Shown in pieces: positions 14,548 through 59,950 of a stretch of DNA of 64,000 bases; the stretch's first letter is position 1, and the number at the start of each line of letters is the position of its first letter. The notes below the pieces were generated by a model. The model saw only the letters and a program-made list of their open reading frames with translations. It did no database searches and had not been told where the DNA came from. Source of the stretch: a bacterium (GTDB lineage Bacteria > Planctomycetota > SZUA-567); NCBI GenBank assembly GCA_003245715.1, contig QKCJ01000006.1, positions 1 to 64,000 on the forward strand. Direction: 5' to 3'. The position numbers were made by a program, and so were the translations under genes.

Positions 14548-16385
14548 AGCGTGGATTTCGTCCTGTAAAACCATGACAAGAGAACAAGTTCCCGCCAGTG
14601 TCTGCGTGCTTTTATTGGCGTAGATATCGCGGCGCGGATATTATTTATGTGTTTGGCTGTGAACAGATCCTTGGCTGTCTGTTGCGAGAGCAGATCGTTG
14701 AAGCGTTCATTAAGGACGCCGCTGAGCCAGCGGCCGAAGGGCAGTTCAAAACCGCTCTTCCTGCGCTTTGCGATACTCTGCGAGATTAGGTCAGACATCG
14801 CGTCACTCAGTATCGCCTTTTGCCTGCCAGCCTTGATCTTCGCAGAATCAGGCAAGGCAAATGCAAATTCCGCTACTTTATGGTCAAGCAGGAGTGGACG
14901 GACTTCCAGTGAGTGCGCCATGCTGCAGACATCGCAGTCTCGCAAAAGTGTTGAGAGCAGGTAGCCATTCAGTTCGCTGTAGGAAATCTCGGCGAGCGGA
15001 CTGAGGTGGTTGAGTAAAAACGGTTGCCCGTTGTCGTGCGGCTTTGAAATTTGCGGCTTTAGTATTTTGGCCGCCAAAGCTCTTGGCGTATATTCTCTGA
15101 AAAAGATGTCTGCGGCAAATGGAGTCAGCCCGCGGTAGAGGGCCTGCCGGGTTTTATTGTTTGGTTTATGGTTGTGTACGATTGCCAGCAGTGAGCTTAA
15201 AGGGTAGCGCATTTTGGGCGATTGCCTCTGGATGTCGGCAAAATGCGGATACCCGGCAAAGAGTTCGTCCCCGCCAAGGCCGGAGATTGCGACCTTAATT
15301 GACTGCGCGGTATGCTTGCTGACGATAAAAGTGTTAAAGCCATCCATGCTTGGCTGGTCGAGTTTATTGGCAAAGCAGGAGTAGAGTTCAAGGATTTCCT
15401 TGTCTGTGACTACTACCGGGTGATGCTCTGATTCAAGGAACATTGCACTGTCGCGCGCCCCGGCAAGCTCGTCGGTTACTTCGTCCTGCTGCTCAAAGCC
15501 GATGGAAAAAGTCTTAAGTCTGCCTCTGATGTGTTTTGACAATAATGCGCTGACCGCCGCTGAATCTACCCCGCCGCTGAGAAATGCCCCAACCGGCACA
15601 TCGGAAACAGCATGGTAGGCTGCGGCCGTGTCAAGTTCCTGTTTTAATCTTTCAGTAAGATCGGTATAGGTGAGACCCGATATTTCACGATGCAGATCAT
15701 AGGTCGCATTTATGATGTCGTACCAATTCTTTTTTGTATATGTTCCGTCAGACTTGACCAGCATTGACGATCCCGGCTCAAGCTGATAAACATCTTTATA
15801 GATTGTTTCCGGTTGTAATACAGAGCCTGTAGAGATGTAGTCATGCAGGGCGTTGATATTGATTTTCTGTTCAACCAGTCCCGCTTTTATCAGTGGCGCA
15901 AGTTCTGAACTGAAAACAAACTGATCCTTGGTTTTCGACCAGATCAGCGGCTTGATGCCAAAACGGTCACGCGCCAGAAACAGGTTCTTGCGCAGTTTGT
16001 CATAAATTGCAAAGGCAAACATTCCGCGGAATTTATGCAGGCACTCATCCCCCCAGTGGCGGTAAGCATTGAGGACGACCTCGGTGTCGGTGTGTGATTT
16101 GAATACAGCCCCCAGATCGGTCAGCTCATTTTTGATCTCGGCAAAGTTGTAGATTTCGCCATTATAGACAATTACAAATTCATGGTTGCGGTCCTGCATC
16201 GGCTGATGGCCGGCCGCGGAAAGATCCAGAATTGACAATCGCCGGTGTACAAGTAATGTCGTGTGGTCGATAAAGGTACCCGTGTCATCAGGCCCGCGCG
16301 TGAAGAGCGCCGATGAGAGAACCGCCGATACTTCTTCGGGATTTATCTCGGAGTTGTAGTTGAAGATTCCGGCGATTCCACACAC
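14544..16385 (-). CDS. asnB: glutamine-hydrolysing asparagine synthase
   Basis: A 613-residue AsnB-family enzyme beginning at a GTG, so that Cys2 becomes the N-terminal nucleophile (MCGIAGIFNY). The glutaminase domain spans about 1-200 (RRLSILDL, YNGEIYNF) and the synthetase domain about 230-610 with the PPi-loop SGGVDS at 270-275. In polysaccharide clusters such enzymes often amidate a uronic acid or peptide-linked sugar rather than aspartate, so surface-glycan amidation is a reasonable alternative. Two bases separate it from the upstream epimerase stop, and its own stop overlaps the GT4 start. Confidence 0.88.
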   Translation of the reverse strand: MCGIAGIFNYNSEINPEEVSAVLSSALFTRGPDDTGTFIDHTTLLVHRRLSILDLSAAGHQPMQDRNHEFVIVYNGEIYNFAEIKNELTDLGAVFKSHTDTEVVLNAYRHWGDECLHKFRGMFAFAIYDKLRKNLFLARDRFGIKPLIWSKTKDQFVFSSELAPLIKAGLVEQKININALHDYISTGSVLQPETIYKDVYQLEPGSSMLVKSDGTYTKKNWYDIINATYDLHREISGLTYTDLTERLKQELDTAAAYHAVSDVPVGAFLSGGVDSAAVSALLSKHIRGRLKTFSIGFEQQDEVTDELAGARDSAMFLESEHHPVVVTDKEILELYSCFANKLDQPSMDGFNTFIVSKHTAQSIKVAISGLGGDELFAGYPHFADIQRQSPKMRYPLSSLLAIVHNHKPNNKTRQALYRGLTPFAADIFFREYTPRALAAKILKPQISKPHDNGQPFLLNHLSPLAEISYSELNGYLLSTLLRDCDVCSMAHSLEVRPLLLDHKVAEFAFALPDSAKIKAGRQKAILSDAMSDLISQSIAKRRKSGFELPFGRWLSGVLNERFNDLLSQQTAKDLFTAKHINNIRAAISTPIKARRHWRELVLLSWFYRTKSTL

Positions 16386-16387
16386 AG

Positions 16388-17359
16388 TCAGTCTCCGCCA
16401 AGTTCGCTGATAATCATTTTAAGTACATCATCAAGCGCTGTCTGCGGGGTAAAGCCGATAACGCTCTTCAGCTTGGAGGTGTCGGGCTTGCGCCGCTTCA
16501 TGTCGACAAAGCCTTCGCCGTAAATTTCTTCATAGCTGCGGAAAATTATCTCAGAGCTTGAGCCGGATAACTCTTTGATTTTGTTGGCCAGCTCAAGAAT
16601 TGAAATCTCCGAGCTGCTTCCGATATTAAATGTTTCGCCGTAGGCCTGGGGTGAGCCGGCTAGGGCATCAAGACAAGTTACCACGTCCCCGACATAACTG
16701 AAGCATCTGCTCTGGCTGCCGTCACCGTGAATTATGATCGGCTCGTTTTTCAGGGCGGCTTTGATGAAGTTGGGTACCACCATTCCGTAATGTCCGACCT
16801 GTCTTGGGCCGATAGTGTTAAAGAGTCTGACGATTGTTACCGGCAGTCCTGAGGAATGAAAGCACGCATAGCCCAGAAACTCGTCAAGCAGTTTGCACGC
16901 AGCATAACACCAGCGGCGGTGCTTGCTGCTGCCGATTATCGAGTTGTCCTCTTCGCTGAAACTTTCATTGTTGTTTGAACCATACACCTCACTGGTCGAG
17001 GTTATGATTACGCGCTTGTGGTAACGTGTGCAGCTTTCAAGCACGGCTTCAGTCGTATGCAGGTTTTTGTTGATTGTCTCGATGGTGTTTTCCATCACCT
17101 TGCGCACCCCGACAACGGCGGCAAGATGAAAGATAATGTCAGATGTGGCGACTTGGCTTTCTATGAATTTGTTGTCAGCGGCTGAACCAACCAGCAGATT
17201 GAAGTTCGGATTCTGTTTGGCTTTTTCAAGATTGCGGATACTGCCTGTTGACATATCATCAATGACTGTGACGCCATGGCCCTGCAGAAGCATCAGGTCC
17301 GTAAGGTGGCTGCCAATAAACCCGGCTCCTCCGGTGATTAGGATATTTTTCTTGTCCAC
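16388..17359 (-). CDS. NAD-dependent nucleotide-sugar epimerase/dehydratase
   Basis: A 323-residue extended short-chain dehydrogenase: Rossmann motif GGAGFIGSH (residues 10-18), catalytic Ser/Thr region STSEVYGS, and YxxxK as Y152-AAC-K156, then RLFNTIGPRQVGHYGMVVP. The GPRQ/MVVPNFI segment resembles UDP-glucuronate decarboxylase and UDP-glucose 4-epimerase relatives; the exact product cannot be settled. It presumably supplies a sugar donor to the two glycosyltransferases downstream. It starts 27 bases after the trkA stop. Confidence 0.88.
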   Translation of the reverse strand: MDKKNILITGGAGFIGSHLTDLMLLQGHGVTVIDDMSTGSIRNLEKAKQNPNFNLLVGSAADNKFIESQVATSDIIFHLAAVVGVRKVMENTIETINKNLHTTEAVLESCTRYHKRVIITSTSEVYGSNNNESFSEEDNSIIGSSKHRRWCYAACKLLDEFLGYACFHSSGLPVTIVRLFNTIGPRQVGHYGMVVPNFIKAALKNEPIIIHGDGSQSRCFSYVGDVVTCLDALAGSPQAYGETFNIGSSSEISILELANKIKELSGSSSEIIFRSYEEIYGEGFVDMKRRKPDTSKLKSVIGFTPQTALDDVLKMIISELGGD

Positions 17360-34062: not shown

Positions 34063-36486
34063 CTAACCCAGAAGCGAGAGCGCCTGTTGAGGCAGTGAGT
34101 TGGCCTGTGCAAGCATTGAGGTTGCAGCCTGAACAAGAATCTGGTTTTTGGTGTACTCGGTTGATTCTGTAGCCATGTCTGTATCACGGATTGCAGACTC
34201 GGTTGCAGTGATGTTTTCAACAGCAACATTCAGTGAGTTGATATTTGTCTGCAGCAGGTTAGACTGGACAGCGCCAAGACGGGCACGGGCCATCGCAACA
34301 TCGTTAACAGCCTGGTCGATGATTGTCATGGCTTTTTCCGGGTCAACAGCGAGTGATGCATAACCGCTGCTTTGCAGGTCAGTTAGAGAAAGTGTCTTCT
34401 CTTCGTAGATGCCGTCACCATCAAAGTCGTCATAGAAAGATGTTGAACCAAGATCGTCAGCCGCCATTGAGCTGATACCGAGGACTGTGCTTTCGTATGA
34501 GTTTGTGCCTTCGCCAACCTGAAGATTCATGCCGCCGCTGAGGTCGGTGAGTGTTTCTGAAGTGGTGCTGATACACTGCGTTGCGTGGTTGTCTTCGTCG
34601 GTTGTTGCGCCGGCCTTTGAAGAAAGTGCGCCCTGGTCATAACCTTGAACTGCAACTGTGGTCATGCCAAGTTCACCTTCATCAAAAACAAATGTTGCGT
34701 TAAGGTCGGTTGTTGCAACAATAGCGGTCATTCCATCAAGCTCAACCTTAGATCCATTGATGTTAACGGTGGCATCCTGTCCATAATCAGTTATGCTGTC
34801 ATCAACAACATTTCCGTCAGCATCGCTGAATAGCGCACCCTGTTCCATCTCTACAGTTACTTCAGCATCATCACCATAGTCAGTTGAGTAGAGGCGGATA
34901 CCGAGGTCACTGGCAGACATTGTTGCAGTGTAGGTTCCTTCGGCTGAGGCATCAATACCGGTAGCTGAGTCGAAGTCAATATTGATTGTTCCGTAGAGGC
35001 CGGTTGATGAATTTCCGCCATTTGATGTTTCAGCATAGACCTCAATACCTGATAAGGCTGTAAGAGAAGAAGCGTCAATTGCTCCTGAAGTTGCCATTAG
35101 GCTGTTATCTGACATTGTGCTGTCATTGTAGAGATTGACAGTTACTGTGCCGTCAGTGGTGTTGACATCAACCTTGGTATAGATGTTACCGTTAATGTCT
35201 GTGTTTTCACCAAGGCGGACACCTGTAAGAACAGTCGCTTCAAGACCGATGTCATCTGAATTGGTTGTGAAACCGGCGGTTGTGCCTGCGGTGCTTACTT
35301 CTGTTGCTGCTCCAATCTGGAGGACTGCGATGTCGCCAGCTTCCGGGTCTGCTGCTGCAGTTGCATCAATTGAGAAGGTAAGTCCTGAATCATTAAGCTC
35401 GATACTTGAACCGGTGCCGAGGGTTCCGCTTGAAACAGCCATAGTCATGTCTGCATCCTTGTAGACTGTATAGCTGTCATTGTCGCCGAACTTTACGTAC
35501 ACGCAACCATCACCGTCAGTGTTGGCGCCGATTTCAATTGTGCCGGTTACAGATGCGCTGCCGATAGTGTAGTCAGTATCCTGCTTGAAATCCTTGTCAA
35601 GTTCATAGGCGGTGATTACTCCGCTTGTGTGGGCTGTGGATGCGGCTGCAGTGTATGCAGTACTCTGGTCAACACCAGTTACATCATTGTCAAAGATGAG
35701 CTGTGCGCCTACGCCGGTGTCATCTGCATCAGCGTTGATGGTGTCGGCAACGGTACCGATGTAGTCGCCTTCACCAAAGCTGTAGGTTTGTGTGCCGTTG
35801 CTGCCGGTTATGCTCATGACTACATCCGCAGTGATTGTCGTATCGTCCATGTCTACGCCACTGCCGCTTACTGCTTCGATACAAGCCTTTTCTGCGTAAT
35901 TTTCGGTCATTGCATCGCCGTTTGAATCTTCACCGGTGAAGAGGATGTGGATGTCGTCTTCAAGTGAGGTTATCTGGTCAATACGGGTTGCGTTTGTATC
36001 AAGAAGTGCGTTGTCTTCGGTTGAGTCGACATCGGTAACGGTGTCATAACTGATTGACTGTGTGCCGTTAAGTAGATATGTATCGCTGTATTTGGTGGTC
36101 TTGGCGATTCGGTCGATAGTCTGAACTGCCGAGTCCATTTCCGCCTGGTCAGCGATGATCTGGTCTGAACTGGTAATGCCACTGTTGGCAGCGTGAAGAG
36201 CCAGCTCGGTCATTGTGTTGAGAATTTCGTTAACTTCGTTGAGTGCGCCTTCTGCAATACCGACAACGTTTGAAGCTTCTTCGGTATTACGGATAGAACG
36301 GTTGAGACCTGAAAGCTGAGCGCGCAGCTGTTCAGAGATAACCAGGTCAGCCGGGCCGTCTGCTGCAGTATTAATGCGGTAGCCACTTGAAAGCTTGGCG
36401 AGGCTGCTTTCCATTCCTGCCTGATTGGTGTTTAACCAGCGTGATGTATTCATCGCGCTAACATTGGTTGTTACGGTCATTGCCAT
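34063..36486 (-). CDS. fliC: flagellin with greatly expanded variable region
   Basis: An 807-residue filament subunit, well above the common 280-550. The conserved D0/D1 N-terminus (about 1-150: NTSRWLNTNQAGMESSLAKLSSGYRINTAAD region, RNTEEASNVVGIAEGAL) and C-terminus (about 710-807: ARARLGAVQ, ITATESAIRDTDMA, LVQAATSMLAQAN) are intact. Some 560 acidic, Ser/Thr/Asp-rich residues lie between and should form the exposed filament surface. Two stretches of that region (35310-35550 and 34970-35245) look like the beta module repeated in FlgL. GGAGG nine bases upstream supports the first ATG. A single flagellin gene is seen, transcribed divergently from the sigma factor. Confidence 0.95.
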   Translation of the reverse strand: MAMTVTTNVSAMNTSRWLNTNQAGMESSLAKLSSGYRINTAADGPADLVISEQLRAQLSGLNRSIRNTEEASNVVGIAEGALNEVNEILNTMTELALHAANSGITSSDQIIADQAEMDSAVQTIDRIAKTTKYSDTYLLNGTQSISYDTVTDVDSTEDNALLDTNATRIDQITSLEDDIHILFTGEDSNGDAMTENYAEKACIEAVSGSGVDMDDTTITADVVMSITGSNGTQTYSFGEGDYIGTVADTINADADDTGVGAQLIFDNDVTGVDQSTAYTAAASTAHTSGVITAYELDKDFKQDTDYTIGSASVTGTIEIGANTDGDGCVYVKFGDNDSYTVYKDADMTMAVSSGTLGTGSSIELNDSGLTFSIDATAAADPEAGDIAVLQIGAATEVSTAGTTAGFTTNSDDIGLEATVLTGVRLGENTDINGNIYTKVDVNTTDGTVTVNLYNDSTMSDNSLMATSGAIDASSLTALSGIEVYAETSNGGNSSTGLYGTINIDFDSATGIDASAEGTYTATMSASDLGIRLYSTDYGDDAEVTVEMEQGALFSDADGNVVDDSITDYGQDATVNINGSKVELDGMTAIVATTDLNATFVFDEGELGMTTVAVQGYDQGALSSKAGATTDEDNHATQCISTTSETLTDLSGGMNLQVGEGTNSYESTVLGISSMAADDLGSTSFYDDFDGDGIYEEKTLSLTDLQSSGYASLAVDPEKAMTIIDQAVNDVAMARARLGAVQSNLLQTNINSLNVAVENITATESAIRDTDMATESTEYTKNQILVQAATSMLAQANSLPQQALSLLG

Positions 36487-38042: not shown

Positions 38043-38093
38043 ACTAACACTTTGGAGGGGGAAATAGTCTCCAGAATAAGAATGGGTGTTAGT
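38043..38093 (+). promoter_or_regulatory. nested hairpin ending at the fliD start codon
   Basis: ACTAACAC (38043-38050) pairs perfectly with GTGTTAGT (38086-38093), one base before the ATG at 38095. Inside, TGGAG (38053-38057) pairs with CTCCA (38069-38073). The only strong purine tract, GGAGGGGG (38054-38061), is part of the inner stem, so folding would hide the ribosome-binding site or bring it next to the ATG. Confidence 0.5.
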
Positions 38094-38094
38094 C

Positions 38095-41000
38095 ATGAGT
38101 TCAACACAAGCAATCGGCGGAATCATTTCAGGTTACGATACGCAAAGTATTATCGACGCCACGCTGTCGGTGTACTCTACTTCTATTGACAACCTTGAGG
38201 TTGACATTCAGGAGCTTGAGCTTCGGGATGATGCCATTTATGCGGTAAACAATCTTCTGCTTGCCTTCAGTGATTCGGTTGATGCGCTTGCGAGTGATGA
38301 GTTGTGGTCTAGCTCAACAGTAACCAGCAGTAATGAATCGGCATTGAGCGCGACAGTTGATGAGGATGTCAAGGAAGGCAGCTACACTTTTGAAGTCATG
38401 CAGCTTGCACAGGCCGCGCAGTATACCTCAAGCGGAGTTTCGGATAAAGACGCAACGGTTAGCCCTTCAGAGGAAGGCACGATAACAATCGAGTCATCTG
38501 ATGCCTGTCTCAATAACAGCACAAAACTTTCAGTGCTTAACGGTGGGGAAGGTATCAGCCATGGTATAATAAGAATTACTGACAGTGAAGGTAATTCGGC
38601 CGAGATAGATTTGCGCGGCGCTCTTACGATGGATGATATTCTTGATGCCATCAATAATCAGAGTGATGCAAATGTTACCGCTTCCATTAATGACGATGGT
38701 AACGGCCTTGTCATAACAGATAATGCCGGCGGTACAAAGTCAATGAAGATTACCGACTATCAGGGCAACGCTGCTGAAGATCTTGGCATAAATGGCGTGT
38801 TTTCTGCCGGGGTTGCAAATGGAGACGCTGTTTATAGCCTGAGTTCAGCCACACCGCTGACTCTTCTTAATGACGGTCAGGGCATAAATGACGGCACTCC
38901 CGGCGAGATAACCATAACCGATTCCGCAACAGGTGATGAGTGGGTTATTGATTTATCAGACTGCACAACAATTGGTCACATCGCAGAAAAAATAAATTCA
39001 GAGACTGGCGGCGCTGTTGAGGTCGGTTTTTCTGATGATGGGCGTTCACTTGTTGTTACCGGCACAGGTTCGTCAAACCTGACTATCGAAAGCTCGGGCG
39101 GAATTTATGATACAACCGCAGAAGACCTTGGTATTGCAGTAACTGATGGTGGAGATGAAATAACCGGCGGGAAAATTCTTTCAACTCTTGATTCAGTCAA
39201 TATTTCATCACTCTCAGGGGTAAACGGAACGGGTCTTAATAATTCAAAAGGCGAGCATGGTGTTGCGCTAGGTTCATTTGCCGCAACATTCGGCGATGGT
39301 AGCACAATTACTTTTGATTTTGACGCCGCCGGAATTACCAGTGATTCAAGTGTGGATGAAATGCTTGATTATCTTAATTCTCAGGGCGGGGGTGATCTGG
39401 TCTTCAGTCTTAACAGCTCTGCTAACGGTATTGTTGTCGAGAATGCCAGCGGCGAAGCAGTGGTAATAACCGACAGCACAGGTACAACAGCTGCTGATCT
39501 TGGCGTTGCCGATGCTGAAATTGCTTCTGATGATACACTCGATGGTGGCGACCTCGACCGTAATTACATCAGCCGCGCAACAAGCCTTGAAGACCTCAAT
39601 GGTGGTGCAGGTGTTGATGGTGATGTTTTTATTATCACTGATGCCGGCGGTTTCAGCGCTGAAATTGATATTTCGGATTGTGAGACCCTTGGTGATGTTA
39701 TCAGGGAAATAAACGCCAGCGGTCTGGATCTTGATGCAAGCATAAACGATACCGGTGATGGAATTGTTCTGGTTTCTACTCTCGATACCGGCGGAACTAT
39801 CTCCGTTGAAGAGACTGATGGCGGCTCTGTGGCTGAGGACCTTGGTCTGGTCAGCGGAAGCAGCTACGTCAACGCTGACGGTTATGCCGTACTTGATGGC
39901 AGTTATGAAATTAATATCAAAGTGACAACCGGTGAGAGTCTGACTGATATCATGGACAAGATCACCAATAACTCATCGCTTGATGCTTACATTATTGATG
40001 ACGGTAGTGAGTACTCTCCATATCGTCTGGTTATTAACAGTGAGACAACCGGTGAGGCCAGTAATTTTATTATCAGCTCAAATATTTCTGCCCTTGGCTT
40101 TGACCAGACTGCCATCGCCCAGGACTCTGTTCTCCTTTATGGCAGCCAGAGCAATACTTCTGAGCCGATACTCCTGCGCAGTGATGATAATACAAATTCA
40201 ACTGCAGTTATCGGGATGACTCTTGAGCTTGGTGAAGTGTCTGATGGTAAGGTTACAATAACGGTAAACAAGGATCTGGATGCAATTGTCGAGGCTGCTC
40301 AGGCACTGGTTGATTCCTACAATGAGCTTTATCAGACAACTCAGGATATGTTGCAGTATGTTGGGGAAGATGATGAAGATAGTGAGGAGAGTTCAATTAC
40401 CGGTTTGCTGTATGGTGATTCGGCAACGCGCCTGATGCTTCAGAATATCACAAATATGTTTATGGCTGTTGACACAAACAATAATGTTATCTCGACCTTT
40501 TATGATCTTGGTTTTGATTTCAGTCTGGAAGAGACTGAGGATGATGAGGGTAATACCCATTATTACAGTTATCTGAACTTTGATGAAGATGATTTCAGGG
40601 AATTGCTTGAAGAAAGTTTTGAGGATGTCCGTGATTTCTTTTATGAAGAAGGTGACGCGGCTTTAAGCAGCAAGGGTGCGACCGTATCAGTCAGTGGCAG
40701 TTCAGACGGTGTGACATCAGCCTCAAACCTGATTAACGGTCAGACGAGTTCAGAAGATTTCGGAGTTGAGAATGGTTATCAGGCCGGCGGTACAATCGCA
40801 AATGGCGATAATGTCATAACGCTTAACTTAGATGCAAGTACACTTATGGATTATCTGGTTATATATCATATCGACAGTGATGACATGCCGGCTGAAGATT
40901 ATGCGTTGCGTGATTTTACCGTTGAGTATCTTGACAGTGCTACCGGCAAGTGGAAAGAGTTGCGTGAGGTTGTGGATAATGCCAGCAGCTATACGGTTGT

Positions 41001-41361
41001 TGCGTTTGAGACACCCCAGTATGTTGATGCAATCCGCATTACGGCAAGTGAGACAAACGCAGAAGATGATATCATGCGCTTGGTTGAACTGAAGGTGCAG
41101 TCACAGTCAGGAACGGCCAACTCAATGTCAGAACTGCTTAATTCATACCTTGATTCTAGTGACGGTTATTATGCTGCAGCCTCTGATTCCATTGAGAGCC
41201 AGATTGATGACATCGAAGAGACTATCGAGAAAAAAACAGAGATACTTGAGCAGAAAGAGGCGCAACTGTGGTCATCCTATTCGGCGATGGAGGCAACTCT
41301 GGCAGCGCTTGAATCACAAAGCTCATCCTTATCAGCAGCCCTCGGCGAATCAGACGATTAA
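38095..41361 (+). CDS. fliD: flagellar hook-associated protein 2 (filament cap), giant form with discoidin-like domain
   Basis: A 1088-residue cap protein, more than twice the usual 450-650. The N-terminus (GIISGYDTQSIIDATLSVY) and C-terminal coiled coil (IESQIDDIEETIEKKTEIL) are typical FliD. Residues about 139-585 hold four tandem copies of a roughly 95-residue flagellin-hook-IN-type repeat, each with an LNGG/INDG opening and an AEDLG-like end. Residues about 860-1003 look like an F5/8-type C (discoidin-like, galactose-binding) domain: ATVSVSGSSDGVTSASNLING at its front, DYLVIYHID, YLDSATGKWKELREV and VDAIRITASE. Such a domain at the filament tip suggests glycan adhesion. ATG 38095 is preferred to GTG 38086. 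Confidence 0.93.
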   Translation: MSSTQAIGGIISGYDTQSIIDATLSVYSTSIDNLEVDIQELELRDDAIYAVNNLLLAFSDSVDALASDELWSSSTVTSSNESALSATVDEDVKEGSYTFEVMQLAQAAQYTSSGVSDKDATVSPSEEGTITIESSDACLNNSTKLSVLNGGEGISHGIIRITDSEGNSAEIDLRGALTMDDILDAINNQSDANVTASINDDGNGLVITDNAGGTKSMKITDYQGNAAEDLGINGVFSAGVANGDAVYSLSSATPLTLLNDGQGINDGTPGEITITDSATGDEWVIDLSDCTTIGHIAEKINSETGGAVEVGFSDDGRSLVVTGTGSSNLTIESSGGIYDTTAEDLGIAVTDGGDEITGGKILSTLDSVNISSLSGVNGTGLNNSKGEHGVALGSFAATFGDGSTITFDFDAAGITSDSSVDEMLDYLNSQGGGDLVFSLNSSANGIVVENASGEAVVITDSTGTTAADLGVADAEIASDDTLDGGDLDRNYISRATSLEDLNGGAGVDGDVFIITDAGGFSAEIDISDCETLGDVIREINASGLDLDASINDTGDGIVLVSTLDTGGTISVEETDGGSVAEDLGLVSGSSYVNADGYAVLDGSYEINIKVTTGESLTDIMDKITNNSSLDAYIIDDGSEYSPYRLVINSETTGEASNFIISSNISALGFDQTAIAQDSVLLYGSQSNTSEPILLRSDDNTNSTAVIGMTLELGEVSDGKVTITVNKDLDAIVEAAQALVDSYNELYQTTQDMLQYVGEDDEDSEESSITGLLYGDSATRLMLQNITNMFMAVDTNNNVISTFYDLGFDFSLEETEDDEGNTHYYSYLNFDEDDFRELLEESFEDVRDFFYEEGDAALSSKGATVSVSGSSDGVTSASNLINGQTSSEDFGVENGYQAGGTIANGDNVITLNLDASTLMDYLVIYHIDSDDMPAEDYALRDFTVEYLDSATGKWKELREVVDNASSYTVVAFETPQYVDAIRITASETNAEDDIMRLVELKVQSQSGTANSMSELLNSYLDSSDGYYAAASDSIESQIDDIEETIEKKTEILEQKEAQLWSSYSAMEATLAALESQSSSLSAALGESDD

Positions 41362-41380
41362 TAAACAACAGGAGGATATC

Positions 41381-41839
41381 ATGACACCAGAAAGATGCGC
41401 TGAAATATTAAAAAAGAAGGTCACCGTTCAAAGTTATTTCTTTAAGGACCTGTGCCGTATATCACGGTTTCAGAAAGAATTGCTGCTGGCTGGTGAGTAC
41501 GAAAAGCTTACGGCGCAGGTTCAGAAACGTGATGCGATTCTCCGTCGCCTTGATATTCTGCAGAATGTAATCACCTGCTATATTAATTATTGGAATCAGA
41601 CCAATCATGAAGTTTCGCCGAAAGCTTATCGCGGCGTTGAGAGGGCGTTTGAATCTCTGAAGGGTGCGGTGAGTGATCTTGATGAAGCTGATCGGGATCT
41701 GAAGAGTTCTTTACGTGAAGAAATGAAGGAAATGAAATTAGAGATTTTAAAAACAAAGAAGGGGGTCTTTTTGACTTCTTCCTACTCTGCGCCAAAGTTC
41801 CAGCCTAAACCCAGGTTTGTCAGCAAGATTGTCGGTTAA
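41381..41839 (+). CDS. FlgN-like flagellar export chaperone
   Basis: A 152-residue, mostly helical protein. The ATG at 41381 has AGGAGG seven bases upstream, which rules out a longer reading into fliD. The coiled segment KLTAQVQKRDAILRRLDILQ and the alternating hydrophobic helices fit FlgN, the cytosolic chaperone of FlgK and FlgL; its place right before flgK supports this. FliS, the other small chaperone found after fliD, has different motifs. The basic tail (FQPKPRFVSKIVG) is unassigned. Homology is weak, so the call rests largely on context. Confidence 0.65.
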   Translation: MTPERCAEILKKKVTVQSYFFKDLCRISRFQKELLLAGEYEKLTAQVQKRDAILRRLDILQNVITCYINYWNQTNHEVSPKAYRGVERAFESLKGAVSDLDEADRDLKSSLREEMKEMKLEILKTKKGVFLTSSYSAPKFQPKPRFVSKIVG

Positions 41840-41926: not shown

Positions 41927-43687
41927 ATGTCTTTTGAATCTCTGCAGATAGGTGCCAGTGCATTAACGGCTGCAAGTACTTCAATGCTTGTTTCCGGCCA
42001 TAATGTGTCCAATGCCTCAACAGAAGGCTATTCGCGCCAGATTGCCAGTGCTAGTGCGGGTACGGCAGTGGAGAACAATAATAACCTTGTTGGTAATGGT
42101 GTCAGTATAAGCTCAATCTCGCGGGTTGTTGATGAGTATTATCTGAAGACTTTGCGTGAGGCAAATAATAACAGTGGTTACTCGTCTTATATGGAGCAGG
42201 GATATTCTTCAATTGAAACTTTTCTGGGTGGTGTTTCTACAAACGATCTTACAACCGCAATGGACAGTTTCTGGGCTGCACTTAATGATCTCTCGACAGA
42301 CAGCACAGATACATCACTGCGTCAGCAGGTCGTAACGCAGGCTTCAGACCTTTGTGAGACAATCAATGCAATCTCGGAAAACCTGACAAGCCTGCAACAG
42401 GAAATTAATACAGATGTTGTGCAGACTGTTGACGACCTCAATGAGATAACAGCCCGTATTGCCGAGCTTAATGTTGAAATCCTTAAAGATGAAGCAGGAG
42501 GCTCAAGCAATTGTGAGGCTAATGATTTGCGGGATGAGCGCGAGTCGCTGATGAATGAACTGAGTTACATGATTGATATTAATGTCGTTGTTGATTCTGA
42601 TGGCAGTTACAACATTTACAACAATAATTTTGCTCTTGTTTATCGCGACCAGAGTTATGAGGTGGGACTTGAGAAAACCATTGTTGATGAGAATGTTTTT
42701 TACACGCCTGTTCTTGCTGATGGGAAAAAAGAGCTTGACCTTAACGGAGGAAAGCTTGGCGCACAGCTTGAGCTGCGCGATGAAACAATTGTCTCCTACT
42801 CGCAGGAGCTTGATGAACTGGCTTCTTCACTGATCTGGGAGATTAACCGTCAGTACAGTCAGGGAACCGGCCTTGAGGGGTATGCTGAAATAACCAGTGA
42901 TATTGAGGTTGTCAATCCGTCTGCGACTCTTGACGAATTGAATTACGGCTTTACTCCGGTTGAAGGTACATACGAAATTGAAGACGGATCGTTTGAGTTG
43001 ATTGTCTACGATACAGAAACCGGAGAAGAGAAGGCGTTGACTATTGATGTCACCCTCACTGGCAGCGCTGATGATACAATCCTGTATGACTCGGCTAATC
43101 CGACTGCAGATAACTCACTGGTTAATATGATGCAGGACAAGCTTGACAGTTATGCAAGCGGAGCGTTTTCGGTTTCTTTGAATGAAAACAACCAGTTGGA
43201 GATCACTTCTAATACCGAAATGTATCAGCTTGGTTTTGGTGAGGATACTACTGGCGTGGTTGCAGCGCTTGGTCTTAACACAATGTTCAGTGGTCATGAT
43301 GCTTCTGATATCAGTGTAAGTGATGCACTTGAGGGTAATACGGCGTTACTGGCAACCAGTAAGAGTATTGATGATGTTACAACTAATAACCTTACTGAAA
43401 TTATCGCGCTGGCTGACGAGCCGGTCATGTCAAATGGCAGTGAAACTTTCGCTTCGTTTTTTCTCAATACTGTTGTGCGAGTCGGTAATGAATCAGCGCT
43501 CGCGCAGAGTGACAGTGAGTATCAGTCTGACATCCTTGCAATGGTTGAGAATGAGTGCGAGAGTGTTTCCGGTGTCAGTATCGACGAAGAGATGACAAAT
43601 CTGATCGCTTGTCAGACAGCATATAACGCGGCATCAAAATTTATTTCAACCATCAATGAGTGCTACGAACGCTTGATTGATATGTAA
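41927..43687 (+). CDS. flgK: flagellar hook-associated protein 1
   Basis: A 586-residue hook-filament junction protein. The N-terminal rod/hook signature (LQIGASALTAASTSMLVSGHNVSNASTEGYSRQ) and C-terminal SIDEEMTNLIACQTAYNAASKFIS match FlgK; LRDERESLMNEL and DLNGGKLGAQLELRD are typical of the D1/D2 part. Length is normal, in contrast to its giant neighbours. GAGGA eight bases upstream serves the ATG. It is followed by flgL after 31 bases. Secreted through the flagellar type III system with the aid of FlgN. Confidence 0.95.
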   Translation: MSFESLQIGASALTAASTSMLVSGHNVSNASTEGYSRQIASASAGTAVENNNNLVGNGVSISSISRVVDEYYLKTLREANNNSGYSSYMEQGYSSIETFLGGVSTNDLTTAMDSFWAALNDLSTDSTDTSLRQQVVTQASDLCETINAISENLTSLQQEINTDVVQTVDDLNEITARIAELNVEILKDEAGGSSNCEANDLRDERESLMNELSYMIDINVVVDSDGSYNIYNNNFALVYRDQSYEVGLEKTIVDENVFYTPVLADGKKELDLNGGKLGAQLELRDETIVSYSQELDELASSLIWEINRQYSQGTGLEGYAEITSDIEVVNPSATLDELNYGFTPVEGTYEIEDGSFELIVYDTETGEEKALTIDVTLTGSADDTILYDSANPTADNSLVNMMQDKLDSYASGAFSVSLNENNQLEITSNTEMYQLGFGEDTTGVVAALGLNTMFSGHDASDISVSDALEGNTALLATSKSIDDVTTNNLTEIIALADEPVMSNGSETFASFFLNTVVRVGNESALAQSDSEYQSDILAMVENECESVSGVSIDEEMTNLIACQTAYNAASKFISTINECYERLIDM

Positions 43688-43721
43688 TTCTGTTTTCGGG
43701 ATTGGCTTACAGGAGAATATG

Positions 43722-46619
43722 ATGAGAGTAACTCTGCAAATGTCCTGCAACTCATCAATCTATAATATCAGTAACACCGCAAGCGAGTTGTATTCTTTGC
43801 AGAATCAGCTTGCCAGCGGCTACAGTGTTGAAAAAGCCAGCGATAATCCTTCTGCTGCTCTGACTGCTTTGCAGTGTGAGAGTCTGATTAACAAGGCCGA
43901 AATATATGAATCGAATATTACAAGGGCGGATCTCTTTCTTGGTCTGTCTGATACGGCTCTTGCCAGCGTTAATAGCGTACTGACGGATACCAAGAGCATT
44001 GCTTCGGCGGCGGCTAATGGTACTTACACTGAGGATATGATTGACGGTTATATTTCTGAAGCGATCTCAAATCTGACAAGCCTGGTTAATGCTGCAAACA
44101 GTACTAGTTCTGGTCAGTATCTTTTCGCCGGTTCAAACAGCAATGAAGAGCCATTCACGATTGTCAATGACAAGTTTGTCTGTTACAACGGTAACCTTGA
44201 AGAAATAAAAGCCATGGTCGACACGCAGTATTCAGCGGCGATCAATATAACGCCTGATGTGGCGTTTGGCAATCTGCTGACAACCATAGCGTCTGATAGC
44301 TTGAGCAGGGTTCTTAATATTTCCGAGTCAAATTCGACTTCTCTAGAGGATCTTAATGGCGGCACGGGCGTAAATGGAACGACACTTAATATCAAGTATT
44401 CGAGCGCTTATGAGACAGGTCTTAATATTGATATCAGCGAAGCGGAGAATCTGGCGGATGTGGCGCGGATTATTGAAGACGCCAGTGTTTCGCGTGCTGA
44501 CAGTTTCGAGACTACCGATGATGAGTACAACTACGTTCTTCAGGTAAGTCTTAATGATGAAAAAGACGGTCTAGTTATAACCCAGTACAATCGTACCGCC
44601 GGCGTAGTGGTTGATCTTGATACAGACACTTTTGCGACAACTATTACAGTTGATGATACTGTTGCTGCGGTTGATCTTGGCATTGAAGGCACTGGCACAA
44701 CAACAGGAAGCAGCGTTCTTGCCGGAACAGATCTTAATCCTGCCATTTCAGAGCAGACACTTCTTTCTGATATCTCAAACTGGGACGGAAATTCCTTTGT
44801 TATCTACAACGGTGATGAGACCGACGGCAATGTTATCAGTGATGTGACTGGAGACCCGAACTATACCAGTAGCTGGAATCTGACTGGTCTTAGTGAGAAT
44901 GTCAATGTTGATGAAGACGGTGATGTTTATTATTCGCTGACCGATCTTGGCAGCGGCGAGTGGCGGGTTGATATTTACAACGATCCGGACATGACCGAGA
45001 ACAGTCGCATTGCTACAGGTGCTACCGATGGCAGCAAGGTTGTTCTTGAATCTGTTAATAACTCAGGCGTACAGGGAAGCGTTCTTATTTCTCCGCCGAG
45101 CAGTTCTGCAGTGCCCCTTACCGGTGAGTTGTCAATAACTTTTGATTCGACATTTTCTGCCGGTATTGACGTGACCGCCTTTAATGAGAGTGACGGCTCT
45201 CTTGTGGGAACAAGCGGAACCTACTCGACAGGAATGACTGGTAACTGGTCTATTCAGGGGCTGGAGGACGGAGTAAGCACAGACGTGGATGGCAACCTGT
45301 ATGTTGAAATTGTGAAAAATAGCGTGACAGATTATGACGTTCTTCTTTATAGTGACGCAGCCCATACTGACTTGGTGGCAAGTGGTGATCTGCTTGACGC
45401 GGCGCAAGGAACGGTCGTTCTTTCCGGAAGCGCAAATTATCCTGATGTCAGCGGTATGGTAGATTTGTCAATTCCTTCAGATGCTGCAGTCGGCACACAC
45501 ACTCTTACCCTTAACGCATCATTTAGTACTGTCGAAGATTATCTGAATGCGATTAACTATTCAAGCACCTATACCACCGCCGCGATTTCAGATGATGGGA
45601 TGTCGCTTGAGATTTCAAGCCAGCTCAGCGGTGCATACTTGAGTGTTGGTCAGAACTATGAGATGGCTTATCTTGAGGGTGATAATAATTCGCAGCTTTC
45701 ACAGATGAGCCTGCTTGGGGTGGTTGCTGGTTATAACGCAGATGATGCCGGCGGGTTGTATACCTCGGTCTTTATTAATGATGACGGATTGTATCAGGTC
45801 AATGTCTACAGTGATGATGAACATGAGAATCTCGTTGCCAGCGGGACAAGTGATACTGCATACGGGGTGATCCTGTTGAGTGAGGAGAATAACTCAAACC
45901 TGTCTGGCTCGGTATATCTTGAGTACTCTGCTGATGATTATGATATTGAGGTTTCAGCCAAGGGCCGCTCTACTTCAAATGACAGCGCAAACCAGATTTC
46001 AAATATCAACCTGACCGGTCTTGAGAATGGCATAACTTCAGACTTCACCGGCAAAAATTATATTGAGGTTGTCGAGACTACTCCGGGAACATACGCCGTC
46101 AGTCTTTACAGCGATGAGAAACATACCAGCCTCGTTGCCAGTGGAACAATAACCGGTAACGGCACTGTCACCATGAATGAAGCGAATAACTCCGGCGTCA
46201 GTGGCTCGCTCTATCTCAACTACACCGAAGATGACAGTGACATTGTCGTCAATCAGAATGTGTCAGGGCTTTCGGGCAGCAAGCGCGAAGAGAATACTTT
46301 TTCAGCCTACACCGACCTTATTAACGCACTGAATACCATGGATGAGGAGGGAATCGGGGACATGGTTGAGGTCTTTGCTGATGAGATCGACCGCGTGGTT
46401 AATGCCCGCGCCATCATCGGCTCAAGGCAGGATCTTTTTGAGACCATTAATGAACAGCATGAGACCGACATTCTCAATTACACCAATATGCGCTCTGAGG
46501 CAATCGAGGTTGATTACACAACTGCAACCGTCGAGTACACAGCAAAACAGGTTACCTACGAAGCTGCTCTCTCGACGACGGCTCAGGTGATGTCAGTAAG
46601 TATTTTAAATTATCTTTAA
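43722..46619 (+). CDS. flgL: flagellar hook-associated protein 3, giant form with repeats
   Basis: A 965-residue protein, about three times the usual 300-420. D0/D1 ends are clear: SSIYNISNTASELYSLQNQLASG, KASDNPSAA at the front, and ARAIIGSRQDLFETINEQ with a coiled tail at the end. One flagellin-hook-IN-type unit lies at about 44335-44690. Four copies of a roughly 80-residue beta-rich module follow (44876-45095, 45244-45480, 45705-45954, 46006-46250), with the pattern NG-x-xY...Y-x-V-x-LYSD..H-x-x-LVASG and NNSG-x-SGS-x-YL. AGGAG at 43711 gives best spacing to the second of two adjacent ATGs. Confidence 0.93.
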   Translation: MRVTLQMSCNSSIYNISNTASELYSLQNQLASGYSVEKASDNPSAALTALQCESLINKAEIYESNITRADLFLGLSDTALASVNSVLTDTKSIASAAANGTYTEDMIDGYISEAISNLTSLVNAANSTSSGQYLFAGSNSNEEPFTIVNDKFVCYNGNLEEIKAMVDTQYSAAINITPDVAFGNLLTTIASDSLSRVLNISESNSTSLEDLNGGTGVNGTTLNIKYSSAYETGLNIDISEAENLADVARIIEDASVSRADSFETTDDEYNYVLQVSLNDEKDGLVITQYNRTAGVVVDLDTDTFATTITVDDTVAAVDLGIEGTGTTTGSSVLAGTDLNPAISEQTLLSDISNWDGNSFVIYNGDETDGNVISDVTGDPNYTSSWNLTGLSENVNVDEDGDVYYSLTDLGSGEWRVDIYNDPDMTENSRIATGATDGSKVVLESVNNSGVQGSVLISPPSSSAVPLTGELSITFDSTFSAGIDVTAFNESDGSLVGTSGTYSTGMTGNWSIQGLEDGVSTDVDGNLYVEIVKNSVTDYDVLLYSDAAHTDLVASGDLLDAAQGTVVLSGSANYPDVSGMVDLSIPSDAAVGTHTLTLNASFSTVEDYLNAINYSSTYTTAAISDDGMSLEISSQLSGAYLSVGQNYEMAYLEGDNNSQLSQMSLLGVVAGYNADDAGGLYTSVFINDDGLYQVNVYSDDEHENLVASGTSDTAYGVILLSEENNSNLSGSVYLEYSADDYDIEVSAKGRSTSNDSANQISNINLTGLENGITSDFTGKNYIEVVETTPGTYAVSLYSDEKHTSLVASGTITGNGTVTMNEANNSGVSGSLYLNYTEDDSDIVVNQNVSGLSGSKREENTFSAYTDLINALNTMDEEGIGDMVEVFADEIDRVVNARAIIGSRQDLFETINEQHETDILNYTNMRSEAIEVDYTTATVEYTAKQVTYEAALSTTAQVMSVSILNYL

Positions 46620-49828: not shown

Positions 49829-49882
49829 TAACATAATGTTTTTTGAAAGGTCTGATAATTGGTTTTGTTTGGCGGGAGAGAG

Positions 49883-51055
49883 ATGATGCGTAGTAAATTA
49901 ATAATGACAATGTTGCTGTTTTGTGCTGTATTTTCGACAGAGGTATTTGCGGATAATCTGCTGAAAAACAGTGAATTCACGTTTGCTGAAGGCAAGCCCA
50001 ACCCGAATAATTGGGGCGGTACAAAGGAAGAAGCAACCTATAAGCAGATTACAACAGATCTGCCTGAGGGGGTAAAGTCCGGCCTTGAGGCTACAGTTAC
50101 CAAGACTGGTAAGTATATGGGATTTATTCTTCAGAATGTTGCTCTTAAATCAGGCAAGCCTGTAAATATGGTCTTTTCTGCCTATATAAAATCTGACATA
50201 AATCGTGATGCTTATATTCAGGTCAAGCTTTATAAGGACAAAAAACAGATTAGTCAGTTCAACAGTCCGGTAAGCTTTGATAAGTGGCGTTATGTTCAGG
50301 TTCCGTTCAATACCGGTGACGCGGACAGATTGGCGGTACTTCTGCGCTGGAATCATGGCAAAGAGGAAAATGTCGGCAAGAAAACATATATTGCCGATCC
50401 CAAACTTACCGCCCCGGTTAAAACTGTGGCACTTGCCGGCGACTCTATTGTTGCTGATTATATTACCCAGGATGTGCAGCGCGGCTGGGGACAGATGCTG
50501 CCGAAGTACCTCAAGGATAGCATTATGGTATATAACATGGCTATCTGCGGCCGCAGCACCAAGACCTTCATCAATAAAGGTAACTGGGAAAAGCTGCTGG
50601 CGATAAAGCCGGATTTTGTAATGATTCAGTTTGGTCATAACGACAGCCACGGCGCGGAAAAACCGGAGTCTACAAAAGCCGACGGCGAGTACCGTGACAA
50701 CCTCCTGCGCATGATTAAGGATGTCAAGGGTATTGGTGCAACGCCAATTCTCGTCAGCCCTCCGCACCGAAGGGTTTTCAGTAAGGACGGTAAGCTCAGC
50801 GAATCTCTCAAGCCGTACCGCGACCAGATGAAAAAGGTTGCTGAGGAGACCCAGACAACCTTCATTGACCTTTATGATCTGAGCGAGAAGAAACTTATGC
50901 CTCTTGGCGAGAATGGTTCAAAGCCTCTTTACTGCAGTCTCAAGGACCGCACCCACTTCTCAATTGAAGGCGCAAGTATGATTGCAGAGATGATCGTGCA
51001 GGAGCTGGGCAAGACTGATTCACCAATAAAAGAATATATTCTGGAAATCAAGTAA
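49883..51055 (+). CDS. secreted SGNH esterase with N-terminal carbohydrate-binding-like domain
   Basis: A 390-residue exported enzyme: signal peptide (MRSKLIMTMLLFCAVFSTEVFA), a beta-sandwich resembling carbohydrate-binding modules (about 25-175, NLLKNSEFTF to KTYIADPKL), then an SGNH hydrolase. Blocks: GDSIVADY (Ser), GRSTKTF (Gly), FGHND (Asn) and DRTHFS (Asp/His). The set best fits rhamnogalacturonan acetylesterase-like proteins, which remove acetyl groups from pectin-type glycans. GGGAG before a pair of ATGs fixes the start and excludes a longer reading. It has its own promoter and precedes a sugar-sensing regulator. Confidence 0.87.
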   Translation: MMRSKLIMTMLLFCAVFSTEVFADNLLKNSEFTFAEGKPNPNNWGGTKEEATYKQITTDLPEGVKSGLEATVTKTGKYMGFILQNVALKSGKPVNMVFSAYIKSDINRDAYIQVKLYKDKKQISQFNSPVSFDKWRYVQVPFNTGDADRLAVLLRWNHGKEENVGKKTYIADPKLTAPVKTVALAGDSIVADYITQDVQRGWGQMLPKYLKDSIMVYNMAICGRSTKTFINKGNWEKLLAIKPDFVMIQFGHNDSHGAEKPESTKADGEYRDNLLRMIKDVKGIGATPILVSPPHRRVFSKDGKLSESLKPYRDQMKKVAEETQTTFIDLYDLSEKKLMPLGENGSKPLYCSLKDRTHFSIEGASMIAEMIVQELGKTDSPIKEYILEIK

Positions 51056-57430: not shown

Positions 57431-59950
57431 ATGTCTGCGCAGCGTGATGGTTTGAATTTCAGCGAGCTTGATCTTGCTTCTGGCGATCTCCAGAAGGAGG
57501 CTGCTGCATCACCGGTTGGGCGGAAGGTTGTGGAGTATAAGCCGGTTTCGACGATTGCCCGACTTGATTCATTTGAGATTGATTTTGAGCCTGATGAAGA
57601 GGGCGGTGATTTCTTTTTCGCTGATGATGATGACGAGGGGGATACTGACGAGCAAGATTTGGCGCAGGAGGTTGCTGAGTCTGAGGAAGATGGTCAGGAG
57701 CCGGCGGAGGTGGAGGCTCAGTTAGTAGCAGAAGATACTCTGGCCGGAGAGGAGGGGCTGTCTGTTTCTGGCGGGGTTGGGGAAGATGCGGATAATGTTG
57801 ATGATATCGGCCGCGCTTCTTTTGCTGACGAGCAAGTGTCGCATGATGGTTTGAGTGAGAATGAAACTCCCGTTTCCGGCTTTGGATTCAGGGATGATGA
57901 GGATCTGGCTGATACTGAACTGATCTCGCCTGAGGATATCGACGACCTTGATTTCAGCAATCCTGTGAATGTCGCTGATATTTCTGATGAGGCTGATTAT
58001 GAATTTGCCGGTATGGATTTTGCCGGTGCGGGGGCGGATGATTTGCCGCCGGATGTTTCCTCTGGCGAGAGTGATGATGATTTTGCGATTGGTGCGGGTG
58101 GAGATTTCGGCGGTCTGCTTGATGATTTAACCAAAGGTTCTGGCGAGCAGAAGCGCGGCGGAGAGTTTGCCGGCATAGAGGATGATGATACTGGCAGTGA
58201 GGCGGTTGATAGTGATGATGAGGATCAGGAAGATATCCTTGCCGAGATCAGACCTGACTGGGATAAATTCAGGGATGAGATAAATATAGATTTGCCCGGG
58301 ATTTCGTTGTCCCGCGATGGTGATTTGCTTGAAGGGGTTGGCGCGGATGGTTCTGTTGCGGGGGCTTCGGATGAAATTCCTGAATATCTGGCCGCCCGGC
58401 AGAAAGTCGGAGCCGGTTCTGCAGCTGCCGGTGCGAAGTCCGGATCTAAGCTTAAAGCTGAATCTGAAACAGGTGGTGAGGATGAGTTTGAAGAATTTTC
58501 CGACTTCGCTGATAGTCTCGACGAGTCTGATAATGAGGACGATTTTGGCGACTTTGGCGGTTCGGACATGGCGGATGAGCTTGATGATAATGCCCCGGAC
58601 ATGTCGGACATGTTCGCTGATACGGGTATTGATTCTGCAGGAGATCTTGGTGATTTATTTGATTCAGCTGAGGACATGGGTGGTAGTCTTGATGCGGATC
58701 TTGCGGGTTTTTCCGGCTCTGCTGAAGAGGATGATGATGATTCTGGCAGCCTGAATGATGAGCTTATGTCTGATCTGGGCATTTCCCTTGAAGATGATGA
58801 GGGTGAGGATGACTCCGGTTTTTCTGCCGATGATTTTGCCGGAGACCTTGATGACGGCACCGGGGAAGCGGATGACTGGATGCAGAGTGGCGCTCAGGGT
58901 GCGGGGGATACTTCCTGGCTTGATGCGGATGATATGTCTGAAGAGGACATGGGCAATGAATTCTCCGGAATGCTCTCAAACACCGGCTTTAACTTTGAGG
59001 AAGAAAGTCAGGGCGCGCTTGAGGGTTTTGCTGATAGTGGGGAGTATGTAGATAATAAGTCTGAATTGCCGCCCGAGGGAGAGGCGTTTGTCCGCGGTGT
59101 CAAAGCGGTTACTGAGTTCTTCCCGCCGGTTAGTGACCTTACTGATGCGACCAGACAATGGCTGGCTCTTCTGCGTGCAATGCCTGGAAGGATAAAGCAG
59201 CAGGGGCTTACCCGCTCTACAAAAGATTTTCTTGATCGTGTCCATTCGATGATGGGTCTGCAGCATCCGCTCTTTAATTTCATGGCCCGCAAAAAGATTG
59301 ACCGGCAGGTGCAGTCTGAGGAAGGTGGTGAGTCAACAGGAGGGTTTGATTCCGATGATAGCTGGGGTTTGCCTGCTGGTGATTTACCGATGCCTGAAAA
59401 GAATAATTCTTCTGGCGGTGACGTTGAGGATGACGGCTGGGGGTTGGGGCCGATCACCAAGGAGAAGGATGACAATTTCGCTGACTGGAACGATAGTACA
59501 ACCAAGCCGGAGAGTGCTGAGTCTGCTGCTGATGAGTCGGATGAAAATTATACAGATGAACTGGATGCTGCCAGTGATGAGCCGCCGGAGGATATGCTGC
59601 CGGATGAGGAATTCAGTTTCTCCACTGCCGATATGCTTATGGATGATGAAGATTTGGGGCTTAATGATCTTGGCTCTGAATTCGGCGCTGAGGCAGGGGA
59701 GTTTGAGGGCGGCCTTGATGGTTCTGGCGCGGGCGCTAAAGATGATGCGGATTACAGCGGTTTTGTCGGGAAGTTGCGCAAGCTCCGTAATATAAGCTAT
59801 AAATGGTGCCGGATGAGCTATAAGCTTGCTGACAAGTATCTGGATTTTGAGAGAAACTGGTGGAAAATGCTGGACTTTATGGCCTTGCTGATCTTCACTT
59901 TTGCCCTTGCCGCTTTTGTTTCATATTTTCTTTGGCACCGTCCTGCCTGA
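57431..59950 (+). CDS. very acidic, tail-anchored protein of unknown function
   Basis: An 839-residue protein dominated by Asp, Glu, Gly and Ser with many short DDxxDFG/DLGDLF-like linear repeats (about 40-545 and 630-780), expected to be disordered. Two segments break the pattern: a compact helical stretch (about 549-625, VRGVKAVTEFFPPVSDLTDATRQWLALLRAMPGRIK region) and a basic C-terminal part (KLRKLRNISYKWCRMSYKLADKYLDFERNWWKML) leading to one membrane helix (about 812-835). The bulk should be cytosolic, anchored by its tail. AAGGAG is 14 bases before the ATG, a long spacing. Not recognised; possibly a scaffold or cation-binding protein. Confidence 0.8.
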   Translation: MSAQRDGLNFSELDLASGDLQKEAAASPVGRKVVEYKPVSTIARLDSFEIDFEPDEEGGDFFFADDDDEGDTDEQDLAQEVAESEEDGQEPAEVEAQLVAEDTLAGEEGLSVSGGVGEDADNVDDIGRASFADEQVSHDGLSENETPVSGFGFRDDEDLADTELISPEDIDDLDFSNPVNVADISDEADYEFAGMDFAGAGADDLPPDVSSGESDDDFAIGAGGDFGGLLDDLTKGSGEQKRGGEFAGIEDDDTGSEAVDSDDEDQEDILAEIRPDWDKFRDEINIDLPGISLSRDGDLLEGVGADGSVAGASDEIPEYLAARQKVGAGSAAAGAKSGSKLKAESETGGEDEFEEFSDFADSLDESDNEDDFGDFGGSDMADELDDNAPDMSDMFADTGIDSAGDLGDLFDSAEDMGGSLDADLAGFSGSAEEDDDDSGSLNDELMSDLGISLEDDEGEDDSGFSADDFAGDLDDGTGEADDWMQSGAQGAGDTSWLDADDMSEEDMGNEFSGMLSNTGFNFEEESQGALEGFADSGEYVDNKSELPPEGEAFVRGVKAVTEFFPPVSDLTDATRQWLALLRAMPGRIKQQGLTRSTKDFLDRVHSMMGLQHPLFNFMARKKIDRQVQSEEGGESTGGFDSDDSWGLPAGDLPMPEKNNSSGGDVEDDGWGLGPITKEKDDNFADWNDSTTKPESAESAADESDENYTDELDAASDEPPEDMLPDEEFSFSTADMLMDDEDLGLNDLGSEFGAEAGEFEGGLDGSGAGAKDDADYSGFVGKLRKLRNISYKWCRMSYKLADKYLDFERNWWKMLDFMALLIFTFALAAFVSYFLWHRPA

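Follow-up and report, generated by a model that had tools for sequence, protein, structure and literature searches.

The flagellar cap protein FliD encoded in the window (the whole stretch of 64,000 nucleotides that was analysed, part of a 3.7-Mb genome whose named relatives are uncultured Planctomycetota) almost certainly carries a domain of the discoidin, or F5/8 type C, fold, inserted into its D1 helix bundle in the position taken in Campylobacter jejuni FliD by the D4 domain. The closest relatives of the insert in both sequence and structure are CBM32 modules, and we see an even chance that it turns the cap into a multivalent glycan-binding adhesin. That FliD may act as an adhesin is a long-standing idea, with the binding part usually left undefined. 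The candidate binding part described here is compact and separately foldable, with a well-understood lectin-like fold, a defined site and three predicted ligand residues, so that a small recombinant domain would allow a direct test of adhesion through the cap. A search of the literature, with most subscription papers outside its reach, returned no description of a FliD with a discoidin, CBM32 or F5/8 domain.

The open reading frame at 38086-41361 on the plus strand encodes a FliD of 1091 residues, as judged from its Pfam matches to FliD_N, Flagellin_IN and FliD_C, of which FliD_N (70.5 bits, cut-off 24.8) and FliD_C (110 bits, cut-off 25.4) are both far over the curated cut-offs. The start codon is GTG, with an in-frame ATG three codons further in. 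The hook-filament junction genes, flgK and a flgL-like gene, lie directly 3' of it, a location expected of fliD, and flgE- and flgD-type genes are found further along. The features of the region are:

34063..36486, minus strand: flagellin of 807 residues with large outer domains (Flagellin_N 99.2 bits, Flagellin_C 83.2 bits)
38086..41361, plus strand: fliD, flagellar filament cap (HAP2), 5' of flgK and flgL (PF02465 FliD_N, PF07195 FliD_C, PF07196 Flagellin_IN)
38128..38418, plus strand: FliD_N, the N-terminal part of D0/D1, residues 15-111 (Pfam)
40168..40746, plus strand: first part of FliD_C, D1 helices up to the 'VxxhF' helix, residues 695-887 (Pfam positions 11-192)
40645..41109, plus strand: discoidin (F5/8 type C) insert in the D1 bundle, residues ~854-1008 (Pfam PF00754, AlphaFold model m5406dad920fe, Foldseek to CBM32)
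41098..41307, plus strand: second part of FliD_C, C-terminal D1/D0 helices (Pfam positions 164-233)
41927..43687, plus strand: flgK, hook-filament junction (PF22638, 176.9 bits)
43677..46619, plus strand: flgL-like, hook-filament junction, 980 residues (Flagellin_N 49.2 bits; Flagellin_C 22 bits, just under the cut-off of 23)
49859-51055, just 3' of the flagellar genes: GDSL-type esterase, CBM_4_9 domain borderline (Pfam)

Between fliD and flgK, positions 41375-41839 encode a small protein of ~150 residues that has no match in Pfam or NCBIfam and, by its position, is a candidate export chaperone of the FlgN, FliT or FliS type. For an 839-residue protein at 57431-59950 a Pfam search at E 0.01 gave no match.

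The FliD_C match of the window protein is split in two by the insert, and between the halves lies a match to F5_F8_type_C (PF00754; residues 870-1001, window 40693-41088, profile positions 5-126 of 127). The sequence-only reading had placed a discoidin-like domain inside FliD at 40675-41105 (residues 864-1007); these limits agree with those of the predicted beta-sandwich, ~854-1008, and the position of the PF00754 match between the two FliD_C pieces bears out the location inside FliD. Taken alone the window sequence is merely suggestive, since its score of about 21.5-25.7 bits (E 2.7e-4 when the whole protein is searched, 1.4e-5 to 1.6e-5 when the piece is cut out) is under the Pfam gathering score of 28.2, a cut-off which the second FliD of the same genome, on contig C25, passes as a genomic match (31.5 bits) and not inside the whole protein (25.1 bits). 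That the resemblance goes beyond chance is clear from the inserts of 12 related FliDs, which align with one another and of which ten match F5_F8_type_C, with a best E of 4.4e-11, and seven match PF22633, the 'NedA-like, galactose-binding' model. When the inserts were searched one by one against the PDB, no significant match to the fold emerged. Only the profile search succeeded: the best match of the insert profile among the PDB sequences is the CBM32 of S. pneumoniae EndoD (E 1.3e-5), with the His and Asn aligned. With another, unrelated F5/8 protein from this genome as query, only weak chitosanase/CBM32 matches were obtained in the PDB.

The insert is predicted to be an eight-stranded jelly-roll beta-sandwich. 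AlphaFold2, run on the insert alignment without templates, gave a discoidin fold with a mean pLDDT of 83.7 and a pTM of 0.82, most of the beta core being at pLDDT 89-97 (core ~90), and a longer AlphaFold model of the FliD_C region agrees, with a discoidin fold and CBM32 matches first in a Foldseek search of the PDB. The top five Foldseek matches of the insert model in the PDB are all CBM32. The best is the EndoD CBM32 (2xqx, E 1.2e-8), and the NanJ CBM32 with galactose (2v72, E 7.3e-8, TM 0.79) and the GH31 CBM32-2 with GalNAc (4uap, E 1.9e-7) are at the top with it. As SUN, APC10 and IFT25 are likewise found among the matches, the fold alone is no proof of sugar binding. A structure prediction with fold search and a profile comparison with F5_F8_type_C had both been proposed along with the sequence-only reading; the former has now given a jelly-roll, and the latter CBM32 relatives rather than FliD D2/D3. 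The outer domains of FliD are also beta-rich and, with the window sequence by itself under the Pfam cut-off, the segment might be thought an ordinary D2/D3-type domain of superficial resemblance to discoidins. This is scarcely credible, as the Pfam matches of the family, the predicted fold, Foldseek and the search of the PDB by profile all give discoidin or CBM32, and D2/D3 are located elsewhere in the protein. Homology to D2/D3 was rejected on the results of the profile and Foldseek searches, whose listed matches contain no FliD chain.

When a profile of insert-free Planctomycetota FliDs was compared with the PDB, the halves of C. jejuni FliD were matched as chain 108-438 and 579-661. The break in the C. 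jejuni chain, from 438 to 579, falls at the same profile positions, and its D4 therefore fills the same slot as the discoidin, whose insertion point has the 'VxxhF' helix on one side and the C-terminal 'GhAxxh' helix of D1 on the other, as for a Campylobacter-type D4. The C. jejuni D4 is described as inserted into the D1 helix bundle, and a link to heparin binding and adherence has been postulated for it (PMC7316729); it is distant from the cap cavity, between the D3 of the neighbouring subunit and FlgL, and alters the cap angles (PMC12221982). Given this location of D4, the discoidin should also stand outside the cap. The likeness between the two is that of an extra domain of ~140 residues at the same point of the D1 bundle, in the case of C. 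jejuni (6sih, 9gsx) outside the cap cavity and with a suspected role in adherence. The insert profile gave no sequence match to C. jejuni FliD among the PDB sequences, and no Campylobacter FliD chain is among the 50 Foldseek matches listed for the insert model.

Elsewhere in the Planctomycetota the same slot is empty, or holds a Flagellin_IN-like domain, a domain of another kind or a discoidin. In a survey of ~60 FliD loci of other Planctomycetota, picked by score and so not a random sample, 22 have no domain at the slot (gap <40 residues) and the remainder have inserts of ~100-250 residues, with one of ~50. Several of these match or resemble Flagellin_IN and several others, by eye, are of recurrent beta-rich types; they share the slot with the discoidin but are unrelated to it, and lack a discoidin match. 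A single FliD site has, in other words, taken up different, unrelated domains within one phylum. An apparent discoidin match in one genome (G180) was discarded, its insert reading as Flagellin_IN-like and having no Pfam match of its own.

FliD relatives were gathered by searching the GTDB family, order and phylum; a query of the genome contigs with a single whole FliD found nothing, whereas the alignment query was successful. Twelve FliDs with an intact insert come from the family of the window, including the second FliD on contig C25, and the discoidin is present in every complete FliD of the family. In family genomes without a match FliD is cut off by contig ends or was not found. A thirteenth copy (contig C411 of G006, L039) is frame-disrupted, with in-frame stops (TGA, TAG), and is apparently a decaying gene; the same genome also has at least part of another FliD in which the discoidin is intact (C169). 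Discoidin FliDs also occur in G017 and G016, which belong to a second family of the order, and in G321, from a third family of the class, and diverged discoidins are seen in the FliDs of G034, with a Pfam match, and G052, by eye and without a Pfam match. When 392 genomes of the phylum were scanned with the insert profile, FliDs alone were found, with the exception of one protein in G077 that is secreted-enzyme-like and has discoidin domains (E 3.3e-7). A motif scan gave ten confirmed matches, all in MAGs, nine of which are named Planctomycetota or Planctomycetaceae.

The insert is better conserved than the part of the cap that surrounds it, the opposite of what is expected for a decorative outer domain, which argues for a constrained function. 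The 12 family sequences have a mean pairwise identity of 45% in the insert and 40% in the surrounding FliD_C, with the insert the more similar in 45 of 66 pairs when compared with upstream FliD_C and in 59 of 66 when compared with downstream FliD_C, the 66 pairs not being independent. In the ten sequences having all parts, the insert (43%) approaches the axial FliD_N core (46%). The strong correlation between insert and FliD_C distances (Mantel r 0.90, 0 of 20,000 permutations) indicates that the discoidin was inherited with its FliD, not swapped. A recent acquisition was rejected on three grounds. The GC content of the region, 41-46%, is like the 41-49% seen elsewhere in the gene, no repeats flank the insert beyond a 27-nt pair at 78%, and insert and FliD_C have diverged together. 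The residues invariant in all 12 family sequences include N884, G885, N896, G897, H928, Y948, W956, R960 and N965, together with four that form a motif also kept in the more distant FliD discoidins:

41056..41079, plus strand: NAxDxxxR motif before the last strand, its N991, A992, D994 and R998 invariant in 12 of 12

Three of the invariant residues correspond to the polar galactose contacts of CBM32, an equivalence that is based on spacing and on alignment to the CBM32 profile:

40867..40869, plus strand: His928, aligned with the galactose-contact His of CBM32, in 12 of 12 family FliDs (comparison with PMC5291390)
40963..40965, plus strand: Arg960, at His +32 (His +31 for the Arg of CpGH31 CBM32-3), in 12 of 12 family FliDs
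40978..40980, plus strand: Asn965, at Arg +5, the spacing seen in CpGH31 CBM32-3, in 12 of 12 family FliDs

In CpGH31 CBM32-3 it is His1671, Arg1702 and Asn1707 that hydrogen-bond galactose or GalNAc, while Tyr1674 and Tyr1774 stack on the sugar (PMC5291390). The complete His/Arg/Asn set is thus found throughout the family of the window (12/12); EndoD, the best profile match, has a lysine in place of the arginine. An aromatic residue at His+3 is absent from all 12 family sequences, which have Ser, Thr, Ala or Gly there. Binding would still be possible, as some CBM32s take the aromatic from another loop (PMC5291390). Outside the family the set is lost, G017 being without the Arg and G321 without all three, and it is not kept in G034 either, although G321 and G034 retain the discoidin fold. 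This makes a galacto-type pocket plausible in the family of the window, and not across the class. His and Asn are also lost from the frame-disrupted copy on C411.

The insert has the same predicted beta-sandwich as the CBM32s that are its best fold and profile matches (PF00754/PF22633; EndoD 2xqx, NanJ 2v72, CpGH31 CBM32-2/-3), and the family shares their galactose-contact His/Arg/Asn positions. It differs from them in being part of a flagellar cap, where CBM32s sit in secreted glycoside hydrolases, in the lack of a stacking aromatic at His+3 and in the NAxDxxxR motif near its C-terminal end. With the canonical stacking aromatic absent and binding a prediction, we file it as F5/8 type C, CBM32-like, and not as CBM32.

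In the reading that we favour, the discoidin, which lies between two D1 helices in the place of the C. jejuni D4, would be displayed on the exterior of the cap, probably in five copies and leaving flagellin folding undisturbed; both the pentamer and the outward exposure are carried over from the Campylobacter structures. His928, Arg960 and Asn965 would hold a terminal sugar of galacto configuration (galactose, GalNAc or one akin to them) much as in the CBM32 lectins, and the flagellar tip would adhere multivalently to surfaces of polysaccharide or glycoprotein. Glycan binding is predicted here from the CBM32 relatives, the invariant His/Arg/Asn and the unusual conservation. Of the earlier proposal of a discoidin in FliD acting as a glycan-targeted adhesin, the fold and the place inside FliD have stood, and the adhesin is a prediction. 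Its description of a neighbouring gene as pectin-esterase-like did not hold, as Pfam makes it a GDSL-type esterase in which CBM_4_9 is a borderline match, and this gene adds little on the ligand, as proximity proves nothing. More tentatively, the D1-bundle slot may serve FliDs in general as a dock where receptor-binding domains are exchanged, much as at the tips of phage tail fibres; a class-level lineage of Planctomycetota would have fixed a galacto-specific lectin there, making of the flagellar tip a multivalent sugar sensor or anchor.

It is also conceivable, if somewhat unlikely, that the insert is a ligand-free beta-sandwich with a structural or assembly role, which packs on the D3 of a neighbouring FliD, on FlgL or on the large outer domains of the flagellins and tunes cap geometry or flagellin sorting. 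The C. jejuni D4, between the neighbour's D3 and FlgL, does change the cap angles (PMC12221982), and with many large flagellins in the genome (16 Flagellin_N matches) cap and filament could co-adapt. The divergence of the discoidin in step with FliD_C (Mantel r 0.90) would fit such a role, as would the presence of the non-sugar scaffolds SUN, APC10 and IFT25 among the fold matches, the fold also serving protein-protein roles, and the fact that other Planctomycetota have Flagellin_IN-like or other domains, or nothing, in the slot. Packing would not, however, predict that the invariant polar residues match a set of sugar contacts, and FliDs lacking an insert are common (22 of the surveyed loci), so that capping does not depend on the slot.

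A glycan-binding insert might instead recognise the glycans of the bacterium itself, such as glycosylated flagellin, capsule or slime, so that the tip is stabilised or cells are aggregated in place of adhesion to foreign surfaces. Flagellin glycosylation is common in bacteria, and a glycosyltransferase and nucleotide-sugar cluster is present in the window at 12480-17359, on the other strand. The cluster is, however, without any link to flagellin, and we consider self-recognition improbable.

The 16 Flagellin_N matches of the genome (G000) represent about a dozen flagellins, many of them of 800-1300 residues, and FlgL-like proteins. The genome also encodes two FliDs and two FlgKs, possibly for two filament types with different caps. 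The flagellin beside the second FliD (L141:83-3883; contig C25:94782-98582), of 1266 residues, has a matrixin (Peptidase_M10) match that does not reach the cut-off (E 2.3e-4, 21.5 bits, cut-off 24), and its outer region contains HELGHVFGYAH followed by a GLMSY Met-turn, making it a candidate for a metzincin protease built into a flagellin. It recalls flagellinolysin, but the protease type differs. Flagellins with enzyme domains of the flagellinolysin type are like the discoidin FliD in that a filament protein bears a surface-active domain; theirs are enzymes along the filament, in the hypervariable region of flagellin, whereas the FliD insert is lectin-like and at the tip. A related repeat of ~80 residues, of the GVRLGENTDINGNIYTKV...VNLYNDSTMSDNSLMATSG type, is common to the flagellin at 34063-36486 and the flgL-like protein at 43677-46619, and is also nested inside the discoidin of the G017 FliD (L135).
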